Positions 56,101 to 56,789 of a stretch of 64,000 nucleotides of DNA are shown one piece after another. This DNA comes from Arabidopsis thaliana. Taxonomy: Eukaryota > Streptophyta > Magnoliopsida > Brassicales > Brassicaceae. The notes beneath the pieces are model-generated. The model made no database searches, was not told where the DNA came from, and saw only the letters and a list, made by a program, of their open reading frames with translations. The stretch spans positions 7,751,001 to 7,815,000 of the forward strand of contig NC_003075.7 in NCBI RefSeq assembly GCF_000001735.4, written 5' to 3'. Each line of letters begins with the position of its first letter. Position 1 is the stretch's first letter. Made by a program: the position numbers and the translations under genes.

Positions 56101-56789
56101 AATCACAATAAGTTACACTAAACAACCATTGTGATCACCAATTCACTAATACCTAAACTAAACCTATCAAAACTCTTCTCAATTTGTATAATTACAGAAG
56201 AAGAAGAAGAAGAAGAAGAAGAAGAAGAAGAAGAAGAAGAAGAAGAAGAAGAAGAAGAAGAAGAATACGTACCTTGGCTTTTTCACCAAACTCTCTCTTG
56301 AAGATACCAAAAGCACCAGGACCACAAACATCATGAGTCATAAGAACATCAACATTAACCCAAATGTTATCACCAGGAACCACTAATGACTTCTCCGAAG
56401 CTCTAGCTAGAATCTTCTCCGTCATTGTCATCCCAGTTTTCACCTGATAAAATCCAACACACAAAACCATTGAAGTAAAATCAAACGAGAGAGAAAGAAG
56501 AAGAAGAAGAAGAAGCTTATACCGATCCTGTAGTTCCAGGAGACCGATCCTTTTGAGGAGCCATAACGGAAACAATCTTCCGTGAGATCGATTTCTTCTG
56601 ACATCGATGAATCGAAATCTGAGAAGATTTAGGAAACGAAGAAATCCCCAAATCACTCTGCGAAAATCGACAAAACCTATAAGAAATTGAGAAAATGTGA
56701 AATCGAGAGAGAAAAGAAATGAAGGATAGATGAATAACCTTGGAGGATGATTTGCATAGAAAAGGAGAGGAAGAGATAACAGAAGCCAT
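53194..56789 (-). CDS. IIL1: Isopropylmalate isomerase large subunit (aconitase family)
   Basis: Fifteen minus-strand exons: 56789-56739, 56657-56523, 56443-56273, 56081-55929, 55847-55779, 55683-55567, 55401-55327, 55083-55006, 54881-54786, 54690-54641, 54359-54305, 54222-54091, 53735-53688, 53592-53434 and 53334-53194; 509 aa. The Ser/Lys-rich start (MASVISSSPFLCKSSSK...) suits a chloroplast transit peptide. Catalytic landmarks: LLGTDSHTCTAGAFG, and [4Fe-4S] cysteines C376 (GSCTGG), C445 and C448 (PSCGACLGG). With a small subunit it isomerises 2-isopropylmalate in leucine synthesis and methylthioalkylmalates in Met-derived glucosinolate synthesis. The intron after exon 9 starts with GC (GAG|GCATGT). 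Intron 3 holds (GAA)23. Confidence 0.96.
56197..56265. repeat. (GAA)23 / (TTC)23 trinucleotide repeat in IIL1 intron 3
   Basis: A perfect 69-bp GAA run on the plus strand (TTC in the transcript sense). It fills over a third of the 191-bp intron 56082-56272 and begins 7 nt after the splice donor GTACGTA. Expansion of this repeat in the Bur-0 accession is the known cause of the irregularly impaired leaves phenotype. Confidence 0.97.

Follow-up and report, generated by a model that had tools for sequence, protein, structure and literature searches.

IIL1 and its third intron

The window analysed here is a 64,000-nucleotide stretch of the Arabidopsis thaliana genome (NC_003075.7, positions 7,751,001 to 7,815,000, forward strand), and the element in question is a perfect GAA/TTC triplet repeat in an intron of IIL1, a minus-strand gene of the leucine pathway. 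What was computed here covers the tract with its intron, the gene model, the rank within the genome and the strand orientation; for the range of lengths, the mechanism of silencing and the phenotype we rely on passages of the papers cited. The features needed below are listed in window coordinates, with a slash at the splice junction.

53194..56789, minus strand: IIL1 coding region from start to stop codon, 15 exons, 509 aa (isopropylmalate isomerase large subunit)
56793..56816, minus strand: interrupted GAA tract in transcript sense, read from the sequence directly upstream of the ATG, in the putative 5′ untranslated region
56497..56514, minus strand: (TTC)6 donor-proximal tract of IIL1 intron 2, starting at +9
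56273..56443, minus strand: IIL1 coding exon 3, from the gene model built here
56082..56272, minus strand: IIL1 intron 3, 191 bp, GT-AG, phase 0 (GTACGTA...CTGAAG)
56271..56272, minus strand: donor GT of intron 3 (AAG/GTACGTA)
56197..56265, minus strand: (TTC)23 in transcript sense, (GAA)23 on the plus strand, donor +8 to +76
55929..56081, minus strand: IIL1 coding exon 4, from the gene model built here

The gene model consists of 15 exons spliced by script from the minus strand, from 56789 to 53194. The spliced frame is open over 509 residues, and the repeat-bearing intron is number 3 of the 14 between coding exons. The protein matches plant 3-isopropylmalate dehydratase large subunits among the best 120 of 8000 scored candidates in a homologue search, matches Pfam Aconitase, and scores above the cut-offs of NCBIfam NF001614 and TIGR01343 and below those of the bacterial LeuC-type equivalog models; the name isopropylmalate isomerase large subunit is based on the plant homologues. 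In the same set of 120, 118 homologues have no extra residues at the exon 3/4 junction, and the two that do are Brassica predictions, P0004 (1 residue) and P0006 (26 residues). This count is a direct list of the rows with extra residues, as the junction table scores a row that fills the whole insert as 'same length'. The intron-3 donor, AAG/GTACGT, looks close to what we take to be the consensus.

On the minus strand the 23 perfect TTC units begin at intron base 8, after seven intron bases. A preliminary description had put a (GAA)23 tract at this position and at donor +8 of a 191-bp intron, filling over a third of it, and this is confirmed by the sequence (69/191, 36%). It had also named the gene as IIL1 and the intron as its third, in agreement with the gene model and with PMC5006647, where the locus of a published expansion is given as the third intron of IIL1, At4g13430. 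The window thus holds both elements of the IIL1 repeat locus, an isopropylmalate isomerase large subunit gene and a perfect GAA/TTC tract in its third intron.

Elsewhere in the same gene, intron 9 (54691-54785, minus strand; GAG/GCATGT...CTGCAG) is a GC-AG intron, and the frame obtained by splicing it out (NYVE/NRTS) is also present in the B. rapa and B. napus proteins.

A normal-length allele of a variable repeat

The complete period-3 run around the tract measures 70 bp (56196-56265). Simulating the window 100 times with an order-3 Markov model produced non-homopolymer period-3 runs of at most 15 bp, so the tract is much longer than chance would give. Within this genome it is not an exceptional one. 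A genome-wide census with three phase-anchored patterns for perfect GAA/TTC tracts of at least 33 bp returned 31 + 29 + 29 = 89 tracts, among which the IIL1 tract ranks 13th by measured length, with 12 of the other 88 longer. The longest, on Chr4 at ~3.66 Mb (L078:202-804), is perfect over 603 bp, or 201 units, and the next, on Chr1 at ~7.025 Mb (L032:2474-2826), is perfect over 353 bp, or 117 units. With tracts of 201 and 117 units elsewhere in this genome, length by itself does not single out the IIL1 locus. For the region of the 117-unit tract three open reading frames of at least 100 aa are listed; two of them run across the tract, encoding poly-Ser and poly-Leu.

The best explanation, to which we give a probability of about 0.9, is that (GAA)23 is a normal-length allele of the published length-variable microsatellite in IIL1 intron 3, without established effect. 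Presumably it is the Col-0 allele, which we take to have 23 units. Non-expanded Irish accessions carry 3-28 units, with peaks at 9 and 26, and a worldwide range of 0-36 units is cited in the same source (PMC5006647); the claim of the preliminary description that 23 units marks a normal allele holds against both ranges. The tract is in the top ten most variable intronic repeats of 12 strains plus Col-0 (PMC3919575). The expanded iil allele of Bur-0 is at the same locus (same gene, intron and motif) and carries >400 units (PMC11059378), against 23 units here. That this expansion gives a temperature-sensitive phenotype, also part of the preliminary description, is borne out by PMC5006647, whose 131 Irish samples included the expansion from no fewer than 10 stands and which reports that modifiers in the Col-0 background mask its phenotype. 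The locus and its expansion are already in the literature, where the expansion is presented as the sole such case known in Arabidopsis (PMC5006647, PMC3919575). The normal allele therefore matters as a baseline for comparison.

Work on expanded IIL1 reports 24-nt small interfering RNAs, DCL3 and RNA-directed DNA methylation, together with the action of FUG1, AL3 and LHP1 and a change from trimethylation of histone H3 at lysine 36 (H3K36me3) to that at lysine 27 (H3K27me3) at 27 C (PMC12177298, PMC6631633). The 23-unit tract is very probably transcribed as UUC repeats and spliced out with intron 3, and it matters as a substrate for rare large expansions. In expanded alleles the 24-nt small RNAs, the RNA-directed DNA methylation machinery and the H3K27me3 switch reduce IIL1 expression at 27 C and leaf growth suffers.

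Under this reading the 23-unit allele itself would be functionally neutral, as we infer. One set of observations weighs against this: non-expanded repeat number is associated with leaf serration, root temperature sensitivity and hypocotyl elongation, accounting for 8-13% of variation (PMC5006647), and strict neutrality is for that reason not certain. The authors of that study note that the main groups of repeat number map to particular population sub-clusters, and that most of the serration variation is explained by geography and population structure.

Comparison with FXN and the donor-proximal position

The preliminary description drew a parallel with the FXN repeat of Friedreich ataxia. The parallel holds for the outcome, in that both loci have a GAA/TTC tract in an intron of a nuclear gene and expansion leads to chromatin silencing; in FXN it lowers the mRNA with repressive chromatin (PMC3305337). 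It fails for strand orientation, because FXN RNA carries GAA and IIL1 RNA carries UUC. The triplex/R-loop model of FXN has the purine GAA strand in the transcript (PMC3305337), and the transcript here has TTC in that place. FXN intron 1 is ~11 kb (PMC3305337), compared with 191 bp for IIL1 intron 3, and silencing at IIL1, unlike that at FXN, uses RNA-directed DNA methylation and LHP1/H3K27me3 (PMC12177298). The normal range of FXN is 7-30 units (PMC12284527). The comparison should be used only with the strand orientation stated. Sources differ on the position of the FXN repeat, which is given as the third intron in a review (PMC12177298), as the first intron in PMC3305337 and as intron 1 in PMC12284527.

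The IIL1 tract has a near twin. The segment Chr1:4546298-4546460 (L033:1299-1461) is a 163-bp intron that begins with GTAGTA followed by (TTC)24 from donor +7. Translated across the joined flanking exons, the product is part of a methionine aminopeptidase: it matches Pfam M24 at E 1.1e-9 and PDB entries at E values down to 1.1e-11, and it hits the NCBIfam type I methionyl aminopeptidase model with E 1.3e-10, below the whole-protein cut-off as it is a fragment. Both introns are short and have a long donor-proximal TTC tract, of 24 units there and 23 in IIL1, and the two genes are unrelated. From its position we take the Chr1 gene to be At1g13270; we know of no expansion phenotype at this locus and searched for none. 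At1g13270 is among five genes with triplet repeats that are highly polymorphic across 450 strains (PMC3919575).

With the (TTC)6 tract of IIL1 intron 2, these cases raise the possibility that long UUC tracts within ~10 bases of a donor belong to a small class that recurs in Arabidopsis, and that such a position may help the tract to grow or make it easier for the small-RNA machinery to detect. We regard this as unlikely. GGTA is present within 12 bases upstream of 2 of the 88 non-IIL1 tracts in TTC sense (the aminopeptidase tract and one of 35 bp) and of 5 of the 88 in GAA sense, which yields no rule. A donor-word test searched for (TTC)4 or (GAA)4 located 1-8 bases after AGGTAA or after the scrambled word AGGATA, with loci collapsed by hand. 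For (TTC)4 it gave 14 distinct loci after AGGTAA versus 3 after AGGATA (raw 19 and 3), and for (GAA)4 it gave 10 versus 29 (raw 14 and 36). The Fisher p value is 1.1e-4, and becomes 0.011 once 14 of the 29 loci, which belong to one word (AGGATAAGAAG...), are removed. A looser test showed no clear signal: AGGT with (TTC)6 had 37 raw matches versus 33 for a reversed-pattern control, and AGGT with (GAA)6 had 30 versus 53. Taken together, the tests for a broader enrichment of TTC tracts at donor-like words gave mixed results. If the class were real, the aminopeptidase gene would be the next candidate after IIL1 for expansion and silencing of this kind. The twin can also serve as a natural control when asking why a tract expands or silences its gene.

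Splicing and conservation as alternatives

From the short distance to the donor the preliminary description suggested that repeat length could affect splice-site choice, a suggestion that finds no backing in the present analysis. Spelled out, repeat length would tune the splicing of intron 3, with the donor-adjacent UUC tract binding pyrimidine-binding proteins or altering donor use. Longer normal alleles would then splice differently, and retained transcripts with a premature stop would lower IIL1 output. We consider this account, in both its parts jointly, quite improbable. Its starting point is that only seven intron bases precede the tract, and a transcript that kept intron 3 would gain 26 codons (VRI and then 23 leucines) before a stop. 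Repeat number cannot shift the frame of the retained intron, because whole triplets are added. Other intronic repeats of Arabidopsis affect splicing, such as the NTM1 GTT repeat near an acceptor (reviewed in PMC12177298), and the splicing defects of FXN minigenes depend on context and position, which leaves room for a donor-adjacent effect (PMC3305337). In those same minigenes, however, splicing was lowered only by transcription of the GAA strand, and the TTC orientation did not lower its efficiency (PMC3305337). As IIL1 RNA carries UUC, this strand effect argues against carrying FXN mechanisms over to IIL1, and the closest experimental analogy runs mostly against splicing control by donor proximity. 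RNA folding of the exon end and intron 3 gave no unusual structure (z -0.63); the minimum-energy structure leaves donor positions +1 to +7 unpaired and pairs 14 of the 69 repeat bases, all beyond the 49th. The mechanism of the IIL1 expansion, as published, is transcriptional (PMC12177298, PMC6631633), and no report of length-dependent splicing at IIL1 was found in the open-licence literature searched, mostly by listings and passages.

The least probable alternative, and a very improbable one, is that selection keeps the tract as a conserved regulatory element of IIL1: the (TTC)6 tract at +9 of intron 2 speaks for it, whereas unit number ranges down to 0 among accessions (0-36; PMC5006647) and the B. 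rapa prediction P0006 speaks against it. The 26 extra residues of P0006 are located exactly at the intron-3 site, in an apparent read-through of the matching intron, and never repeat F, S or L more than twice in a row, where a TTC tract would give a single-residue run; the matching B. rapa intron would therefore have no TTC tract. If P0006 is indeed a read-through, this one annotation suggests a B. rapa intron of 78 nt without the tract. A normal-length allele of a variable microsatellite remains our reading of the (GAA)23 tract.

At a distance from IIL1, the window contains tandem repeats rich in CCACCA/CCTCCA units at 8885-9814 and 33100-34129. From their motif, as read in untranslated letters, we assume these to be extensin-like.
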